NCBI GenBank assembly: GCA_003645255.1
Contig: QNES01000027.1
Coordinates: 1 to 32,637, forward strand
Direction: 5' to 3'
Source: Gammaproteobacteria bacterium
GTDB lineage: Bacteria > Pseudomonadota > Gammaproteobacteria > Beggiatoales > Beggiatoaceae
DNA length: 32,637 nucleotides
Shown here: positions 684-30,517 of the stretch, piece by piece
Numbering within the stretch: position 1 is the stretch's first letter
Layout of the letters: each line of letters opens with the position of its first letter
Translations under genes and position numbers: made by a program
Notes under the pieces: generated by a model
The model's input: only the letters and a program-made list of their open reading frames with translations
What the model was told of the DNA's origin: nothing
Database searches by the model: none

Positions 684-1361
684 TCAATCCACCTGTTCAG
701 TTTGCCATTGCTGATAAATAGGTAATAAGATTGCAAACATTTCCTCAAGTTCCTCGGTTAATTCTTCCTCTTCTCGTGTATTGAGCCACCAATTTCCAAT
801 GAAGTTGAGTACTTTTTGACGTAAAAGATTTGTTGTGGGCAACGCAATGAGTTGACTAACAGCTTCTCGTTGTATTTCTCCAAGACCGAGTAGCCTCAGC
901 CAAAGTGTATCAATTGTGGTAGGTAGACGATCAATAACAACGATGCCCGTTTTAAAGCCCTCTTCGGTTAAATAAACACCTTGACACCAGTTGAGTGGTT
1001 GGTTTATCGCATTAAAGATATCCAATAACTTATCCGAAACTGATGTTGTTATAATCCACAAATTCGGCAATGCCTCATCCGATAGTGGCTCTTTTTCTTG
1101 ATTTTCTTCAGCATGTTGTTCCTGTAGCTTTTCATGCCAAACAAAGAGTTTTCGTATGCACTTGCAAATTTCGACTTCAATCGGTGACAGCCTAAAGTAT
1201 TCTAACAAACAATGGCTTGATACCATTTTACCCAATAATCCCAAATCGTTAAAATCAATTTCGGGCATAGCGTGGGGCGTAAAGAAAAGTTCGACAGGCT
1301 CTATTTCTTCATTTCTTTCTTCAACAACGCTTAAAGCATGACATGTATCAGTTGATTCCAT
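684..1361 (-). CDS. Conserved hypothetical protein, 225 aa
   Basis: Function unknown. The protein is acidic and soluble-looking, with no signal peptide or membrane helix. Its second half (about residues 100-190) has the pattern LWIITTS, GVYLTEEGFKTGIVVIDRLP, DTLWLRLLGLG and QLIALP, followed by a very acidic tail. From memory this resembles an uncharacterised protein family common in filamentous cyanobacteria and large sulfur bacteria, possibly nuclease- or transposase-related, but I cannot verify that. The N-terminal third is low-information. The start is the ATG at 1361, which lies almost directly behind a TAACTGA heptamer array with no clear ribosome-binding site. It is transcribed divergently from tsaD. 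Confidence 0.65.
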   Translation of the reverse strand: MESTDTCHALSVVEERNEEIEPVELFFTPHAMPEIDFNDLGLLGKMVSSHCLLEYFRLSPIEVEICKCIRKLFVWHEKLQEQHAEENQEKEPLSDEALPNLWIITTSVSDKLLDIFNAINQPLNWCQGVYLTEEGFKTGIVVIDRLPTTIDTLWLRLLGLGEIQREAVSQLIALPTTNLLRQKVLNFIGNWWLNTREEEELTEELEEMFAILLPIYQQWQTEQVD

Positions 1362-1370
1362 TTCGGCTAC

Positions 1371-1404
1371 CAGTTATCAGTTATCAGTTATCAGTTATCA
1401 GTTA
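1371..1404 (-). repeat. TAACTGA heptamer array (about 5 units) upstream of the 684-1361 gene
   Basis: The plus strand reads (CAGTTAT)4 plus CAGTTA, which is (ATAACTG)n in the direction of the gene starting at 1361, nine bases from its ATG. The orientation relative to the gene matches the arrays before tsaD, thrB and the AbiC-like gene. Confidence 0.9.
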
Positions 1405-1717: not shown

Positions 1718-1738
1718 TAACTGATAATTGATAACTGA
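1718..1738 (+). repeat. TAACTGA heptamer array (3 units) leading into tsaD
   Basis: TAACTGA, TAATTGA, TAACTGA run head to tail and end three bases before the tsaD ATG. No Shine-Dalgarno sequence lies between array and start, so the array occupies the place where one is expected. Confidence 0.9.
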
Positions 1739-1741
1739 AAA

Positions 1742-2752
1742 ATGCGTGTATTAGGTATAGAAACTTCTTGTGATGAAACCGGGGTAGCCGTGTACGATTC
1801 AGAACAAGATTTATTGTTAGGGCATGCCCTATATAGTCAAATAGATATACATGCCCAATATGGTGGTGTCGTTCCAGAATTAGCCTCCCGTGATCATGTT
1901 CGCAAACTTGTACCACTGATTAAGCAATTATTAACTGAAAATCAGATAAAGCCTAATGACATTGAGGGAATTGCGTACACCGCAGGTCCTGGCTTAATCG
2001 GGGCATTATTGGTGGGTGCAGCGATAGGGCGTAGTTTAGCTTGGGCTTGGCAAGTACCCGCTATAGGTGTACATCACATGGAAGGGCATTTACTCGCTGC
2101 CATGCTTGAAAAACCTGCTCCCACTTTTCCCTTTCTTGCTCTACTGGTATCAGGGGGACATACCCAATTAGTTCAAGTTGCAGCTAGGGGCAAATACACA
2201 ATACTAGGAGAATCCGTAGATGATGCAGCAGGTGAAGCCTTTGATAAAACCGCTAAATTACTAGGATTAGGCTACCCAGGCGGACCAGCTATAGCACAAT
2301 TAGCGGCACATGGCAACCCTGATGTTTTTCACTTTCCCCGCCCGATGACGCAACGTCCAGGTTTAGATTTTAGTTTTAGTGGCTTAAAAACCTGTGTATT
2401 AACAACTTGGCAAGCGCAAGCGCAAAATGAACAAACTCGTGCCGATATTGCTCGCGCCTTTGAAGATGCCGTTATAGATACTTTAGCTATCAAATGTCGT
2501 CGTGCTTTACAACAGACTGGTTTAAAACGTTTAGTCATTGCTGGCGGTGTAGGTGCTAACCAACGTTTACGTATTCGCTTGACACAATTGGCTAATAAAA
2601 TGGAAGCAAGTGTCTATTATCCCCGCCCAATATTTTGTACTGATAACGGTGCCATGATAGCTTATGCAGGTGCGCTACGTCTGGTAGCCGGTCAATCTGA
2701 CCCCCTAAGTTTTAGCGCATATCCGCGTTGGTCAATGAATGAATTAAGTTGA
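1742..2752 (+). CDS. tsaD: tRNA N6-adenosine threonylcarbamoyltransferase TsaD
   Basis: TsaD (formerly Gcp/YgjD) transfers the threonylcarbamoyl group from TC-AMP to A37 of ANN-decoding tRNAs, working with TsaB and TsaE in the cytoplasm. The 336 residues match the family length. Visible hallmarks are the N-terminal [10 protein letters not shown] nucleotide-binding strand, the HHMEGH metal site (H112 and H116), [24 protein letters not shown], a [10 protein letters not shown] loop and the C-terminal metal ligand D301 in CTDNGAMIA. The gene appears intact and monocistronic. The upstream TAACTGA array, rather than a recognisable ribosome-binding site, precedes the ATG. A GTAGGGGC-type hairpin follows the stop codon. 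Confidence 0.97.
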
Positions 2753-9600: not shown

Positions 9601-10301
9601 AACCGCGTCGCCTTCTGAATAGCCCCTGTTGGTCTGGTATCATGGATAATGGTCGAGCTTACTCGCCATTTTGTATGAGTGTTGAGCGTAAAGTTCCCTG
9701 GCGCACCCTGACCGGGCGGCAACATTTTTATTTAGATCATGAAGGTTATTTGGCTTTCGGTGAACATTTGCCAACTTATAAGCCTAAAGCTGATCCTCTG
9801 CTATACGGTGATTTTACTAAGACGCAAAAAGGTGAAGCGAATAGTGTCATGCTCAATTACTTGACACCGCATGGTAAGTGGCATATTCATTCTACCTACT
9901 ATGACAATCATCGTATGTTGACTTTATCACGGGGGATTGAACCCTTCTGGATTAGTCCGAAAGATGCTGAAACCATAGGCATTATAGATAATGACTGGGT
10001 AGAAATTTACAATGATCATGGCGTTGTCGTCACGCGAGCTGTGGTCAGTTCACGTATACCAAACGGTGTTGGTATCTGGTATCATGCGCCAGAGCGGACG
10101 ATTTCAATTCCAAAATCGCCCTTGCGGGGTAATAGAAGGGGTGGCGGACATAATAGTCTGACTCGTACCCGCGTTAAACCGGTGTTGATGATGGGTGGTT
10201 ATGGACAGTTTACGTTCCATTTGAACTATTGGGGACCAACGGGAGTCAATCGTGATGCCCATGTCATGGTTCGCAAGCTACAAGGTAAACCTGAGTTTTA
10301 A
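6675..10301 (+). CDS. narG: Respiratory nitrate reductase alpha subunit NarG
   Basis: NarG holds the bis-MGD molybdenum cofactor and reduces nitrate to nitrite with electrons from NarH. I start it at the ATG at 6675, giving [10 protein letters not shown], with GGGAG 11 bases upstream; a TTG 18 bases earlier, overlapping narC, is less likely. At 1208 residues it is close to the usual length. The FS0 cluster ligands H33, C37, C41 and C76 are present, as is the [12 protein letters not shown] segment that carries the Asp ligand to molybdenum in NarG enzymes. No working Tat leader is visible, which fits a cytoplasm-facing enzyme. The gene lies second in narCGHJI, and its stop codon falls inside the first copy of a 77-bp repeat. 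Confidence 0.96.
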
Positions 10302-10441
10302 TAAAATCATAGAAATCCGATTTTTTAAAATCGGATTTCTAAATCATTTCAAGGTGAAAAGGTGAACCGGCGTTTTAATAAAGTCACAGAAATCCGCGTT
10401 TTTTAAAATCGGGTTTCTAAATTATTTCAAGGTAGAATAAA
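10296..10441. repeat. Tandem 77-bp palindromic repeat between narG and narH
   Basis: A unit beginning TTTTAATAAA at 10296 restarts at 10373, a 77-base period, and the second copy runs to the narH start. Each contains an AGAAATCCG hairpin. The first is a perfect 14-bp stem (AGAAATCCGATTTT at 10311-10324 with its complement at 10327-10340); the second (10388-10418) is diverged with a wobble. The narG stop codon is part of copy 1, and CAAGGTAG in copy 2 probably serves as the narH ribosome-binding site. The same hairpin recurs at 26050-26081. Confidence 0.85.
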
Positions 10442-11938
10442 ATGGATGTCAGAGCGCAAGTCTCAATGATGTTCCACTTAGACAAGTGTATTGGTTGTCA
10501 TACTTGTAGCGTCGCCTGCAAAAATATTTGGACAGACCGCCAAGGCACTGAATATATGTGGTGGAACAATGTAGAAACCAAACCGGGTACCGGTTATCCT
10601 ACAAAATGGGAGGATCAAGAAAAATATAAAGGTGGATGGGAGCCTAAAGAGCAAACGATCAAATTACGGGCGACCGATAAATTTCGGGGACTCGCTAATA
10701 TCTTTCATCAACCTCATTTGCCAACCATTGATGATTATTATGAGCCATGGACCTACAAGTACAGTGATTTATTTGATGCCCCGGCTGGTGACGATCAACC
10801 GACCGCTCGCCCAATATCATTAATTACCGGCGAAAATATGGACATCAATGCTGGACCCAATTGGGATGATGATCTCAGTGGTTCAACGGTTTATGCTAAT
10901 AATGATCCGAATTTAGAAAATTTAAGCGACGGTGAAAAACAAGCCTTGTTTGAAATAGAACGCCTGGTCTTTTTCTACTTGCCTAGGATCTGCAACCATT
11001 GCTTAAATCCTGCTTGTGTTGCTTCCTGCCCATCGGGTGCGCTCTATAAACGGGGTGAAGATGGTATAGTTTTGCTTGACCAAAACGTATGTCGTGCATG
11101 GCGTTTTTGTGTGTCAGCCTGTCCTTATAAAAAGACCTACTTCAATTGGAAAACAGGTAAATCAGAAAAGTGTATTCTCTGTTTTCCCAGGTTAGAGACA
11201 GGGCAACCGCCGGCTTGTTTCCATTCTTGTGTTGGTCGTATTCGTTATCTGGGTGTGGTGCTGTATGATGCCGATAAGATTGAAGAATATGCTTCTGCTC
11301 CCAAGGAAGATTTGGTACGCTTACAACGGGAAATGATTTTGGACCCTTCTGATCCCGAAGTCATTAAGCAAGCAGAAAAGAATGGCGTACACTTTTCAGT
11401 CATTGAATCTGCCAAAAAATCGCCTGTTTATAAGTTTGTGAAGGAATGGGGCATGGCTCTGCCATTGCACCCAGAATATCGTACCTTGCCCATGCTTTTC
11501 TACATTCCACCGCTGTTGCCGGTATTAGGGCATGTTGAAAATGGAGTTTATAATGTTGATGCAGAGGGTTACTTCGGCTCCTTAGACAAAGCGCGTGTTC
11601 CCATGCAATACTTAGCAAACTTATTTACGGCTGGAAATGAAGAACAAGTGCGTACTGTTTTGGAAAAACTATTAGCAGTGCGTATGTACAAACGATCTGA
11701 ACAGGTGGATGATATTAAACCGTCTTTGGTCGAAGATATGTTGAAAAAGACAGGTTTAACACCTGAAACCTGTGAAGAAATCTATCGCTTGACCTCATTA
11801 CCCACTTTTGATGAACGTTTTGTGATACCACCTATGCACCGTGAATACGCAGCGGAATTGATGGCAGGTGATCCTTACCTCTTCAAAGCCGAAGCGGGTG
11901 TCGGTGGTTTCAAGGACCGTCCAGATAGGGGTTTGTAG
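10442..11938 (+). CDS. narH: Nitrate reductase beta (iron-sulfur) subunit NarH
   Basis: NarH relays electrons from the haems of NarI to NarG through four Fe-S clusters. All ligand groups are visible in 498 residues: C16/C19/C22/C26; C184/C187/C192/C196; C217, then W220 in place of a cysteine, C223 and C227, which gives the family's [3Fe-4S] cluster; and C244/C247/C259/C263. The C-terminal part resembles standard NarH, so the protein looks complete. It is separated from narG by the 77-bp tandem repeat and from narJ by a palindrome, spacers that are unusual in a nar operon. Confidence 0.96.
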   Translation: MDVRAQVSMMFHLDKCIGCHTCSVACKNIWTDRQGTEYMWWNNVETKPGTGYPTKWEDQEKYKGGWEPKEQTIKLRATDKFRGLANIFHQPHLPTIDDYYEPWTYKYSDLFDAPAGDDQPTARPISLITGENMDINAGPNWDDDLSGSTVYANNDPNLENLSDGEKQALFEIERLVFFYLPRICNHCLNPACVASCPSGALYKRGEDGIVLLDQNVCRAWRFCVSACPYKKTYFNWKTGKSEKCILCFPRLETGQPPACFHSCVGRIRYLGVVLYDADKIEEYASAPKEDLVRLQREMILDPSDPEVIKQAEKNGVHFSVIESAKKSPVYKFVKEWGMALPLHPEYRTLPMLFYIPPLLPVLGHVENGVYNVDAEGYFGSLDKARVPMQYLANLFTAGNEEQVRTVLEKLLAVRMYKRSEQVDDIKPSLVEDMLKKTGLTPETCEEIYRLTSLPTFDERFVIPPMHREYAAELMAGDPYLFKAEAGVGGFKDRPDRGL

Positions 11939-18313: not shown

Positions 18314-19171
18314 TTAATAGCGGCTCTGTTGCAAGGCAATAATTCTATCTTCAAGCGGTGGATGGCTCATAAAAATATATTGTATGAAACTTCGAGCCTT
18401 GCTACCCTGAATACCAAAAGCGGCTAATTGATCGGGCAATTGCCCCGCTTGTCCCATTTGTAAGCGTTGCAAGGCGGCAATCATTTTATTCGTTCCAACC
18501 AATCTCGCAGAGCCAGCATCGGCGCGAAACTCTCGTTGTCGTGAAAACCACATCACAATCACACTGGCGAGAATCCCTAGCACTAATTCGGCTACCAGGA
18601 TGCCAAGATAATAACCCGGTCCATTTCCCCTGTCATTTTTAAAGATAGTACGATCAACCAGTTGACCGATGACTCGCGCTAGAACAATAATAAAAGTATT
18701 TATCACACCTTGAATGAGAGCCAATGTCACCATATCGCCGTTAGCAACATGGCTTATTTCATGCGCTAACACCGCCTCAACTTCACGTTGTTCCATTGCC
18801 TGAAGTAAACCGGTACTAACCGCCACCAGTGCGCTATCACGATTCATGCCGGTCGCAAAGGCATTGATAGCAGGGGAATCAAAAATAGCGACTTCAGGCA
18901 TACCAATTCCAGCTGAGTGAGCTTGACGACGTACCGTATCTAATAACCAGGTTTCGGCAGAATTGCTTGGCTCTTCTATTACATGGGCCCCCATCATTTT
19001 TTTTGCCATCCATTTGGAGAGGGCTAACGAAATAAACGAACCACCCATACCAAATATCAGTGCTAACAAGAGCAAAGGCATTGTATCGGTGACACCGAAT
19101 AAGGATAAAGTAAAGCCAAATAAAATTAAAACTGCAAGGTTGGTAGCAAGAAATAATGTGACCGTTTTCAT
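18314..19171 (-). CDS. htpX: Membrane zinc metalloprotease HtpX
   Basis: HtpX is an inner-membrane M48B protease that degrades damaged membrane proteins with FtsH. The 285-residue protein has two N-terminal membrane helices (about 4-25 and 30-50), the catalytic HEISH motif at 137-141, two further helices (about 152-172 and 187-208) and the third zinc ligand E214 in REFRADAG. It ends with HPPLEDRIIAL, typical of the family. It follows thrB after 20 bases that consist of a TTAATGG-type heptamer array, so the two are probably co-transcribed. No clear ribosome-binding site is seen. Confidence 0.96.
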   Translation of the reverse strand: MKTVTLFLATNLAVLILFGFTLSLFGVTDTMPLLLLALIFGMGGSFISLALSKWMAKKMMGAHVIEEPSNSAETWLLDTVRRQAHSAGIGMPEVAIFDSPAINAFATGMNRDSALVAVSTGLLQAMEQREVEAVLAHEISHVANGDMVTLALIQGVINTFIIVLARVIGQLVDRTIFKNDRGNGPGYYLGILVAELVLGILASVIVMWFSRQREFRADAGSARLVGTNKMIAALQRLQMGQAGQLPDQLAAFGIQGSKARSFIQYIFMSHPPLEDRIIALQQSRY

Positions 19172-19176
19172 ATTTT

Positions 19177-19204
19177 TTTAATGATTAATGGTTAATGGTT
19201 AATA
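19177..19204 (-). repeat. Heptamer array, TTAATGG type, at the thrB-htpX junction
   Basis: Four units TTTAATG, ATTAATG, GTTAATG, GTTAATA run head to tail on the plus strand. In gene orientation they encode the last residues I-N-H of ThrB and its TAA stop, and the remainder forms the leader of htpX. The unit differs from TAACTGA, so this is a second heptamer type. Confidence 0.8.
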
Positions 19205-20115
19205 TGCGCTTTTAAAATATCGCGATAAACCGTCGGATCTTTAATATGCGTTATTTCGCCAGAACGTGGAAAATATAAATCTTGTAAGCGCGATAACCAA
19301 AATCGTAATGCCGCCGCTCGTAATATGACCGGCCAATTTTCATATTCAAGCTGACTGAATGTTCGATTTTCAAAGTAACCATCCAACATCGCTTGTACCC
19401 GTTTATCATCTAAACGACTATCAGGTAGGCTACACCAATCATTCACAGTAATCGCAACATCATAAATTAAAACGTCATTGCAAGCATAATAAAAATCAAT
19501 AATTCCAGACAAAATATCGCCCTCAAACAGGGCATTGTCCCTAAATAAATCAGCATGAATAACGCCACACGGTAAGTCCAGATGTCGATAATTGGCTTGA
19601 AACTCTAACTCCGCTTGTAGCAGTACAACATCATCAGGCTCCATAAAGGACAATACCCGCTCTGCGGTTATTTTCCACCAATGGGGACCCCGTCCATTCG
19701 GACGATAATGTGGAAAATGCGGGTTCACCGTATGCAAACGCCCTAGTGCATAGCCCACCGCATAACATTGCGCTAAATTCGGCATCAATACATCTTGACC
19801 ACGGAGACGTTTAACTAAAGCCGCCGGTTTTGAATTCAATTCGCGCGAATAATGTCCCTGTGTATCAGCTAAGGGGTGAGCACTCTGAATATCATGCTCG
19901 GCAAGATAAGCCATTAGTTCAAGAAAATAAGGCAATTCATCACAATCTAAGGATTCAAACAAAGTCAACACAAATTCACCACTCGAAGTGGTCACAAAAT
20001 AATTAGTATTTTCTATGCCGGCAGTGATACCTTGATAGGCAAGTAAATGGCCTAAATCATAATTGGTTAAAAACTTTTCAAGTTGATGGTGTTCAACGAG
20101 TGTATAAACAGACAT
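19192..20115 (-). CDS. thrB: Homoserine kinase ThrB (APH-fold type)
   Basis: This enzyme phosphorylates L-homoserine in threonine synthesis. It belongs to the aminoglycoside-phosphotransferase-like homoserine kinases of proteobacteria rather than the GHMP type. Evidence in 307 residues: GITAGIENTNYFV near 29-41, the phosphotransfer site GVIHADLFRDNALF (D189, N194), and the metal-binding IIDFYYACND (D207). The start codon directly follows a TAACTGA array; the stop codon lies in a second heptamer array. It is the middle gene of a minus-strand run with a DUF2064-type gene upstream and htpX downstream. Confidence 0.93.
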   Translation of the reverse strand: MSVYTLVEHHQLEKFLTNYDLGHLLAYQGITAGIENTNYFVTTSSGEFVLTLFESLDCDELPYFLELMAYLAEHDIQSAHPLADTQGHYSRELNSKPAALVKRLRGQDVLMPNLAQCYAVGYALGRLHTVNPHFPHYRPNGRGPHWWKITAERVLSFMEPDDVVLLQAELEFQANYRHLDLPCGVIHADLFRDNALFEGDILSGIIDFYYACNDVLIYDVAITVNDWCSLPDSRLDDKRVQAMLDGYFENRTFSQLEYENWPVILRAAALRFWLSRLQDLYFPRSGEITHIKDPTVYRDILKAHINH

Positions 20116-20143
20116 ATCAGTTATCAGTTATCAGTTATCAGTT
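20116..20143 (-). repeat. TAACTGA heptamer array (4 units) joining two genes
   Basis: Four perfect ATCAGTT units on the plus strand. Read in gene direction they encode the last three residues T-D-N and the TGA stop of the DUF2064-type protein (stop at 20133-20131), and the rest reaches the thrB ATG at 20115 with no bases between. Confidence 0.92.
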
Positions 20144-20727: not shown

Positions 20728-21525
20728 TTCTATCCATTTTTTTATTAAAAAAAAGACACCCTTGCTCCCCAAAGTAATAGTTTGAGGCAAAACGATAAGG
20801 GCAAAGTTTCGTTCAGATTTAAAATGCCAACCTGATTAGTTTATACCAAGTTTTAGAAAATGGGAGTCATTTGCGTGAGCTTATCCAAACCTGAAGGTTT
20901 CGACTCCAATCCCTCATTTCGCCTCATTTCTGATGTGATTAATTCATGGATTCTTATATTAATTTCCTGGATATATTCTTGCCTGTTTGCATTTTAGTTA
21001 ATTTAATAAATAATTAATTAATAATATTATAATTTTATTAATTAATTAATAATTTATATTATAATTTGATAAAATAATAATTTTATTATTAATTCTTTAT
21101 ATAAATTAATGACTTAACAATCTTAAATATACAATTTTATAAAAATAAATAATATTAAAATAATAGTAAATTCAATAGATTACAAATATACACTCTATTT
21201 AAAAAATATATATTTTCAATAATGTATAAAAAAGACTTTACATTGCTCATAAAATTTAGTAATATAAGCACCATGTTATTGTCAACCTGAAAATTGAATT
21301 TTAAATAATTTTTATATTGGTTAAAATTTAAAATGAGAATTTGAGGAAGATTTTGGCTGAAACTTATAATTCTTATGTTGTATTTCCCTAAACATAAGAA
21401 AATGGCACAAAGCGGCTAAATAGATATTATCTTTAGCCATTGGTAGGTAGATTCACCCACTCTTAATATTGAGTGCCTATTGTTAACTTATTTCGCTGTT
21501 AACATAAACGAATCGGAGAAATATT
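20728..21525. other. AT-rich divergent intergenic region, about 800 bp
   Basis: No gene was found. Positions 20990-21250 are extremely AT-rich with many ATTAAT and TAATTA repeats. Near 20870-20935 lies a segment (ACCTGAAGGTTTCGACTCC) related to the GGAGTCC hairpin. The region must hold the promoters of the minus-strand thrB group and of the plus-strand molybdoenzyme operon. I could not identify them with confidence. Confidence 0.5.
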
Positions 21526-29570: not shown

Positions 29571-30500
29571 TTATCTATTCCAGGGTTCGTTAATGGCATT
29601 TTTGGGATAAAGCTCATAATGCTCTTTTTTCTTCTGGTTATTATTGGGTAATAGGTATTCTTTTGGGAGACTTTTTAATAGGGGGTAAGCTTCCATCGCC
29701 TGGTAAAACTCCTTTTCTCCACGCTCATATACAAGATATAAACCATTATAAAAAATTAAAACTAACTCAAAACCAGAAAGTTGGGCTCGAATAATGTTCA
29801 AGTAATCTTCTTTTGCTTGTGTACTTATATAAATTTTGTGAGATTCCACAAAAAGAATCATTTGATAAAGATTACGAAAATAATGCTCTAATTTTTCCTG
29901 ATTACCTCTGACATAGAATCTTTTATAAGTTTTTCTAATAATTTCTTGGCTATTGTTTAAAATAGAAGAAAGATCGGCATAAGAAAGGTTATTAGATTTT
30001 CTAATAGCAATCGTTTGCTCAATTTTTTTTATTTCTTCATCATACGCATATTTAAGCGCATGAAAAAAATGAATAAAACAACTTCGTCCTTTAATCAGTT
30101 TTGTACCACTCTCAATAGTTAAACCATTAACGAGACTATGGTGTAAGTTTAAAAGTTGAAAAAAAGTACCTTCAAAATTCTGCCGTTGCAACGCATTTGA
30201 AACATTTTTCAATTCATAAGTTGAATTTTTTAACTCTTGACTTTGAATTATGATCGTTACCAGCAATAAAATCAAAGAAAAAAAACTCAATATTGAGCCT
30301 AATATGCCACCAACATAATCTCCGAGTAAAGCAAGATCGGCTAATTCATCTGGAAGAGTCAATCTGGCATTTTTAACGTAAACATAACCCACCCAAAAAA
30401 TGGAAAAGATCGCAAAAATCAAAATCACAATAAACAGGATAAATGTCCAATTACGTGACCACCAATTTTGCTCATTATAGGTAAGATGTTCTTCCTTCAT
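29571..30500 (-). CDS. Putative phage abortive-infection protein (AbiC-like)
   Basis: The 309-residue protein matches the layout of the putative AbiC family: two N-terminal membrane helices (about 18-41 and 65-86) with a conserved GDYVGGILGSILSFFSLILL segment, a short coiled-coil stretch (QSQELKNSTYELKNVSNAL), then NFEGTFFQLLNLHHSLV (109-124), HYFRNLYQMILFVE (206-219) and IIRAQLSGFELVLIFYNGL (236-254). Members are thought to act in abortive phage infection, with the mechanism unknown. The N-terminus lies in the inner membrane and the rest in the cytoplasm. The start codon directly follows a TAACTGA array. No partner gene is obvious; metZ downstream is housekeeping. Confidence 0.8.
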   Translation of the reverse strand: MKEEHLTYNEQNWWSRNWTFILFIVILIFAIFSIFWVGYVYVKNARLTLPDELADLALLGDYVGGILGSILSFFSLILLLVTIIIQSQELKNSTYELKNVSNALQRQNFEGTFFQLLNLHHSLVNGLTIESGTKLIKGRSCFIHFFHALKYAYDEEIKKIEQTIAIRKSNNLSYADLSSILNNSQEIIRKTYKRFYVRGNQEKLEHYFRNLYQMILFVESHKIYISTQAKEDYLNIIRAQLSGFELVLIFYNGLYLVYERGEKEFYQAMEAYPLLKSLPKEYLLPNNNQKKKEHYELYPKNAINEPWNR

Positions 30501-30502
30501 AT

Positions 30503-30517
30503 ATCAGTTATCAGTTA
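30503..30517 (-). repeat. Short TAACTGA array before the AbiC-like gene
   Basis: ATCAGTTATCAGTTA on the plus strand is two heptamer units, in the same orientation relative to the downstream ATG (30500) as the other three arrays. Confidence 0.75.

Follow-up and report, generated by a model that had tools for sequence, protein, structure and literature searches.

Tandem heptamers beside start codons in a Beggiatoaceae genome as candidate translation-initiation elements

Heptamer arrays in the window

Why does one seven-nucleotide word, TAACTGA, stand in tandem and in one orientation directly before the start codons of unrelated genes? The question arises from the window, the whole 32,637-nt stretch of DNA analysed here, in which a preliminary description had reported such arrays before four genes, reading in the direction of translation and leaving no room for a Shine-Dalgarno (SD) sequence. 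We found all four in the sequence, sense-oriented, with ends -1 to 9 nt from the ATG, and in each case there is indeed no space for an SD between array and start codon. The array at 1371–1404 (minus strand; 4.9 units) lies 9 nt from the ATG of a 225-aa open reading frame (684–1361, minus strand) that was without a Pfam match, and TAACTGA-TAATTGA-TAACTGA at 1718–1738 (plus strand), termed split because its middle unit is the variant TAATTGA, lies 3 nt from the ATG of tsaD (1742–2752, plus strand; tRNA N6-adenosine threonylcarbamoyltransferase; Pfam TsaD, E=2e-99). At 20115–20143 (minus strand), 4.1 units run into the ATG of a thrB-like, homoserine-kinase-like gene for an APH-type phosphotransferase (19192–20115, minus strand; Pfam APH, E=2e-33), taking in its A (distance -1), with the last full unit 1 nt away. 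The shortest array (30502–30517, minus strand; 2.3 units) lies 1 nt from the ATG of a putative AbiC-like gene (29571–30500, minus strand; Pfam putAbiC, E=4e-17), its last full unit ending 3 nt from that codon. Exact TAACTGA doublets occur six times in the window and not once in 100 dinucleotide shuffles.

A fifth heptamer array, overlooked in the preliminary description, is built of TTAACCA with a last unit TTAATCA (19178–19203, minus strand; class II, see below), and is placed as the TAACTGA arrays are, 6–14 nt from the ATG of an htpX-like gene of the M48 peptidase family (18314–19171, minus strand). The window holds other repeats as well: a 77-bp tandem duplication (88% match) with a ATCGGATTT palindrome at 10282–10433, directly before a gene at 10442, and imperfect AT-rich repeats with units of 11, 28, and 32 nt at 20994–21171, in the long intergenic region before gene 21526. 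A short palindromic element, GGGCAACC..GGTTGCCC / 'aggggcagacctgcgtgtctgccc', recurs in the region 2810–2840 and in two leaders elsewhere in the genome (C3:47112 and C14:26964).

Placement across the genome

TAACTGA doublets number 254 (overlapping) in the whole 4.41-Mb genome (G000), against 0 for the reversed pattern. Placement was analysed in a 789-kb sample, 18% of the genome, made up of the window and the longest contigs (C1–C15), in which a hexamer model called 607 genes; the starts are those of our own gene caller, with which ortholog N-termini mostly agree. The sample contains 58 exact runs, 49 of them pointing toward the start of the next gene, 4 toward a stop, 3 inside genes, and 2 at contig ends. 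The preliminary description had named random orientation or random distance to starts as the outcome that would speak against it; in this sample 35 of the 58 runs end -3 to 10 nt from a start in the forward orientation and none does so in reverse, while random placement in non-coding DNA brought a mean of 1.2 and a maximum of 6 in 500 near starts. The arrays lie outside the open reading frame, and the longest in G000 has 10 units. Distances to the ATG depart from uniformity (chi2 p=8e-5), TAACTGA-N-ATG being the mode, and single AACTRA units in array-free genes likewise peak 0–4 nt from the start (21 versus about 2 per bin). Unit fidelity drops outward from the proximal unit with distance from the start, a gradient to which the method itself contributes, since each array was anchored on its last perfect unit.

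Array genes seldom carry an SD (4/45, versus 172/554 of the other genes and 7–9% in controls), in a genome where SD use coexists, at about 29% of genes versus 8% in the control. TAACTGA does not pair with the 16S 3' tail as an SD does: its duplex with an assumed E. coli-type tail has -3.5 kcal/mol, compared with -12.2 kcal/mol for AAGGAGGU, and 24% of shuffled units pair at least as well. A search for the 16S gene in this metagenome-assembled genome found none. Complementarity of the heptamer units to 16S rRNA was rejected as an explanation, being no better than that of shuffles. All eight units tested as 5-mers have a predicted minimum free energy of 0 on the sense strand, and several are predicted to be structured in antisense. 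Array leaders are predicted to fold less than shuffled leaders, and the structure gap between array and non-array genes is modest (p=0.01). Codon adaptation in the sample did not differ between array genes and other genes and so gave no sign of an expression effect; a link with high expression by this measure was rejected.

Period seven and exchangeable units

The preliminary description took TAACTGA itself as the feature; the word is present as described, but this proved too narrow: the feature is a periodicity of 7, and several units can stand in for one another. Exact tandem repeats of period 7 occur at 3.29 per kb at starts, versus 0.084 in coding DNA and 0.57 in other non-coding DNA (a 6-fold difference); periods 6 and 8 show no such enrichment. 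In 80 of the 607 genes an exact run of period 7 ends no more than 25 nt from the start. We divided the units, after the unit list had been seen, into class I (TAACTGA-like; n=50, median 2 nt from the start) and class II (the G-free TTAACCA, TTAACAA, TTCACAA, and TTCCCAA; n=35, median 14 nt), and the distances of the two classes so drawn differ (p=5e-6). Class II also has a polarity, 35:5 forward to reverse. A unit of reverse polarity, (TTAATGG)n, was seen in three G000 leaders (C12:7944, C5:19636, and C4:33662), one of them in the infB-truB-pnp region, and a recurrent palindrome of the type GAAATCCGATTTTT..AAAAATCGGATTTC, to all appearance a dispersed REP-like element, lies just 5' of heptamer arrays in several G000 leaders, for example before C14:4293, C10:11905, and C2:60707.

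The dominant unit differs between congeners. Doublets of TAACTGA and TTAACCA number 254 and 86 in G000, 11 and 55 in G033, and 28 and 105 in G034, all of one genus, and 46–108 and 0 in genus g24. The period-7 excess is weaker in G034, G039, and G040, and the densities for G034 and G039 are not unbiased because their stretches were picked from contigs in which arrays had already been seen.

Orthologous leaders

For 58 array genes we identified orthologs in the congeners G033 and G034 by best hit and aligned the leaders at the start; gene names ending in "-like" were read from the N-terminus and not all family-checked, whereas rpsA, pnp, fusA, rplV, and rplC were checked. The array is kept in orthologs of fusA, pnp, infB, rplV, and an hflK-like gene, and is degenerate in rpsA. 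A single unit stands at the ATG in orthologs of thrB (congener leader 'aattaataactgaat-ATG'), an ndk-like gene, gene 684–1361 ('taactgataactaataactgt-ATG'), and others. In further cases the array has been swapped for another heptamer family, as in gene #48 (TTAACAA to TAACTGA), a clpS-like gene (TAACTGA to CACCATT in G033), and genes #54 and #55, and in the M48 peptidase gene the leader 'gaactgataaccaaac-ATG' replaces the TTAACCA array. An SD takes the place of the array in orthologs of lysC-like, yfgM-like, and metK-like genes and, in G034, of a dnaK-like gene, while the leaders of truB-like and dnaJ-like orthologs have no recognisable signal. AACTRA or ATAACT was found in the last 20 nt of 13/24 class I orthologs in G034 and 12/21 in G033, against a small baseline of 0/32 for orthologs of genes that lacked both array and unit. 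An exact array and an SD are both absent from many orthologs (28–30 of about 44–49), which means that a gene can do without the array. Retention appears higher in translation genes (5/8 versus 4/42 of the others, p=0.003), which is only suggestive since genes were assigned to the groups manually once the table had been seen.

Deeper comparisons were made for two genes. Among the rpsA leaders of 30 genomes, (TAACTGA)n-T-ATG is found in three genera, with TAACTGAT-ATG identical in seven genomes and the distal units variable; one genus with almost no arrays has a degenerate TAGCTGATT-ATG, and most of the remaining genomes have a differing leader, GTCAGGGGTTTGGA-ATG, upstream of which genus g24 also has a TAACTGA array. 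GTCAGGGGTTTGGA-ATG is strongly conserved in many array-free family members (rpsA leaders L426–L436) and is in itself a candidate rpsA regulatory leader. Before pnp, TAACTGA doublets lie 15, 12, 12, 28, and 2 nt from the start in G007, G010, G012, G013, and G025, respectively (distances from coordinates alone); in G010 and G012 this doublet is the only one in the genome, and G039 and G040 have degenerate arrays.

Outside the family, in cyanobacteria, Bacteroidetes, and other phyla, an open reading frame starts within 30 nt of 27 of the 112 arrays listed in the forward direction and of 0 in reverse, against 7.5% in a shifted control; these loci are a sample of at least 112 arrays, drawn for four or more units, several of them from one genus (Okeania). 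Many of the 27 read TAACTGA-A-ATG, with a 1-nt register. Cyanobacterial arrays have the same polarity and the same TAACTGA-N-ATG register as the G000 arrays.

Comparison with known systems

MacGregor (2015; PMC4679880) described 169 sets of TAACTGA in the genome of the Orange Guaymas 'Maribeggiatoa'. Most of these are forward and none has more than 6 units; the commonest distance to the start is 1 nt, about 10% have an SD, and stops fall in all frames. The paper put forward a role in regulating translation, with S1, Csp, and Csr named as possible factors. The polarity, the start contact, the SD absence, and the proposal itself all stand in that paper, so the corresponding finding of the preliminary description is sound and was already known; action on translation initiation is still the best-supported reading. 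The G000 arrays resemble those repeats in being built of the identical heptamer in forward polarity, most often 1 nt from the start and mostly without an SD, and share some of their genes (rpsA, pnp, fusA, and rplC); the tandem units are mostly intergenic (3/58 runs in genes), forward near starts, and in G000 as well the SD is mostly absent. They differ in that here we find further heptamer families, unit swaps between orthologs and congeners, retained single proximal units, and 10-unit arrays; given that greater maximum, G000 is probably related to the 'Maribeggiatoa' assembly and not identical with it. The same paper reports single-base-variant heptamers to be rare as direct repeats, and mixed orientation in a small Microcystis sample. 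Other heptamers are not rare here (86 TTAACCA doublets in G000 and 105 in G034, with several other units at starts), but TTAACCA and its like are not the single-base variants surveyed there, so our result extends that survey and does not contradict it. What is new is the generality of period 7, the retention of single units and the swaps in orthologs, the conservation of the motif in rpsA and pnp leaders across several genera, and the cyanobacterial polarity and register.

Three other systems invite comparison. In Flavobacterium johnsoniae (PMC6847099), SD-independent initiation depends, as we propose for G000, on low structure and the bases just 5' of the AUG without SD pairing, though the Kozak-like leaders of Bacteroidetes are position preferences, whereas G000 has tandem heptamers and uses SDs alongside. 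The heptameric repeat of Xanthomonas and Nostoc (PMC4692102) is tandem and abundant with period 7, as in G000, but is G-rich and quadruplex-forming, whereas our units are G-poor, unstructured by prediction, and strand-oriented to start codons. Standby sites and S1-assisted loading (PMC3936740, PMC3858243) involve, as would the arrays, single-stranded leader segments that aid 30S loading, but standby sites sit 5' of the SD, whereas class I arrays occupy its place.

A proposed initiation element and its alternatives

We favour, with somewhat more than even confidence, the reading that the arrays are tandem-amplified copies of a translation-initiation element adjacent to the start codon, of which the proximal unit would be the functional one. 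This draws on features read from the sequence, namely polarity, start contact, register, replacement of the SD, specificity for period 7, proximal retention with distal loss or exchange, and a predicted lack of structure. The functional core would be the unit nearest the start, positioned as AACUGA-N(0-3)-AUG, acting on the mRNA at initiation and presumably with a positive effect, and the extra units upstream would have been made by 7-nt slippage. Their persistence would be explained by their effect on the leader, which they keep single-stranded and devoid of SD-like sequence. Such a leader probably allows the 30S subunit to load without an SD helix, the likely contact being S1 or the mRNA track of the 30S; the rpsA array retained across three genera is only an indirect pointer to S1 as the putative binder.

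The main rival is that the arrays are bound in trans by a regulator of translation whose pitch is 7 nt (Csp or another OB-fold protein, S1 as a repressor, or some other RNA-binding protein), their genes forming a regulon. The fixed spacing of 7 with neighbouring periods not enriched would suit such a protein, the longest-conserved arrays precede rpsA, pnp, infB, and fusA, typical targets of autogenous control, and Csp-, S1-, and Csr-type binders were proposed in PMC4679880, which cites heptamer binding by B. subtilis CspB. We nevertheless consider this unlikely: unrelated heptamers replace the units at orthologous starts (#48, #25, #54, and #55) and the dominant unit changes between congeners, both hard to reconcile with one sequence-specific protein, and relatives often retain a single unit while cyanobacteria show the same register. 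The preliminary description had also suggested that arrays block upstream ribosomes, which is arithmetically true of TAACTGA, with its two stops per unit and UAA or UGA in every frame beside the AUG. A stop cassette of this kind, serving insulation or termination-reinitiation, is consistent with the overlap of some arrays with the stop of the upstream gene, and among 60 necklaces with this composition only 2 combine a lack of structure with two stops. As a general role it fails, since the stop-free TTCACAA and TTCCCAA also precede starts, array genes are no more often directly behind a close co-directional gene than others (12/49 versus 89/348, or 24% versus 26%), and 15 of the 49 are divergently transcribed; we judge it improbable, and termination-reinitiation as a general rule was rejected for want of that enrichment.

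Neutral slippage products might instead pile up wherever they are tolerated, their location mirroring constraint only. Array presence and copy number do turn over between congeners, heptamer repeats are widespread in some bacteria (Mrazek 2007, as cited in PMC4679880), and period 7 is in 2-fold excess in other non-coding DNA of both G000 and G034. A genome-wide slippage bias to 7 was rejected as the sole cause, however, because the excess over the geometric mean of periods 6 and 8 is about 2-fold elsewhere in non-coding DNA versus about 19-fold at starts; the polarity (35:0 with TAACTGA, 35:5 with the G-free units), the non-uniform register, the 6-fold start density, and the proximal units retained by orthologs make a neutral origin very improbable. 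That the arrays are DNA-level promoter elements yielding leaderless mRNAs is scarcely plausible. They are AT-rich, lie within 10 nt of starts, and contain GATAAC, which by inspection partly resembles a -10 box, yet they occur inside conserved operons (infB/truB/pnp, and fusA with the S10 operon genes rplC and rplV), can overlap the upstream gene, and in several cases enter the ATG, where there is no room for the distance between -10 and +1.

Implications

Beyond the initiation element favoured here, we offer as a speculation, with rather low confidence, that a class of tandem heptamer leaders, and not any one fixed sequence, marks the start codon through period 7, sense polarity, and lack of structure, the AUG register being kept while the word changes from species to species, possibly in parallel in giant sulfur bacteria and cyanobacteria, and that the OB-fold repeats of S1 may read the 7-nt pitch. 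In many bacteria most genes have no SD, which raises the question of how the start is chosen in such genes. Here, orthologous genes form a natural series of single unit, short array, long array, swapped unit, and SD, and cyanobacteria, some of them culturable, have a motif with that register too; together these make the proposal of 2015 directly testable.
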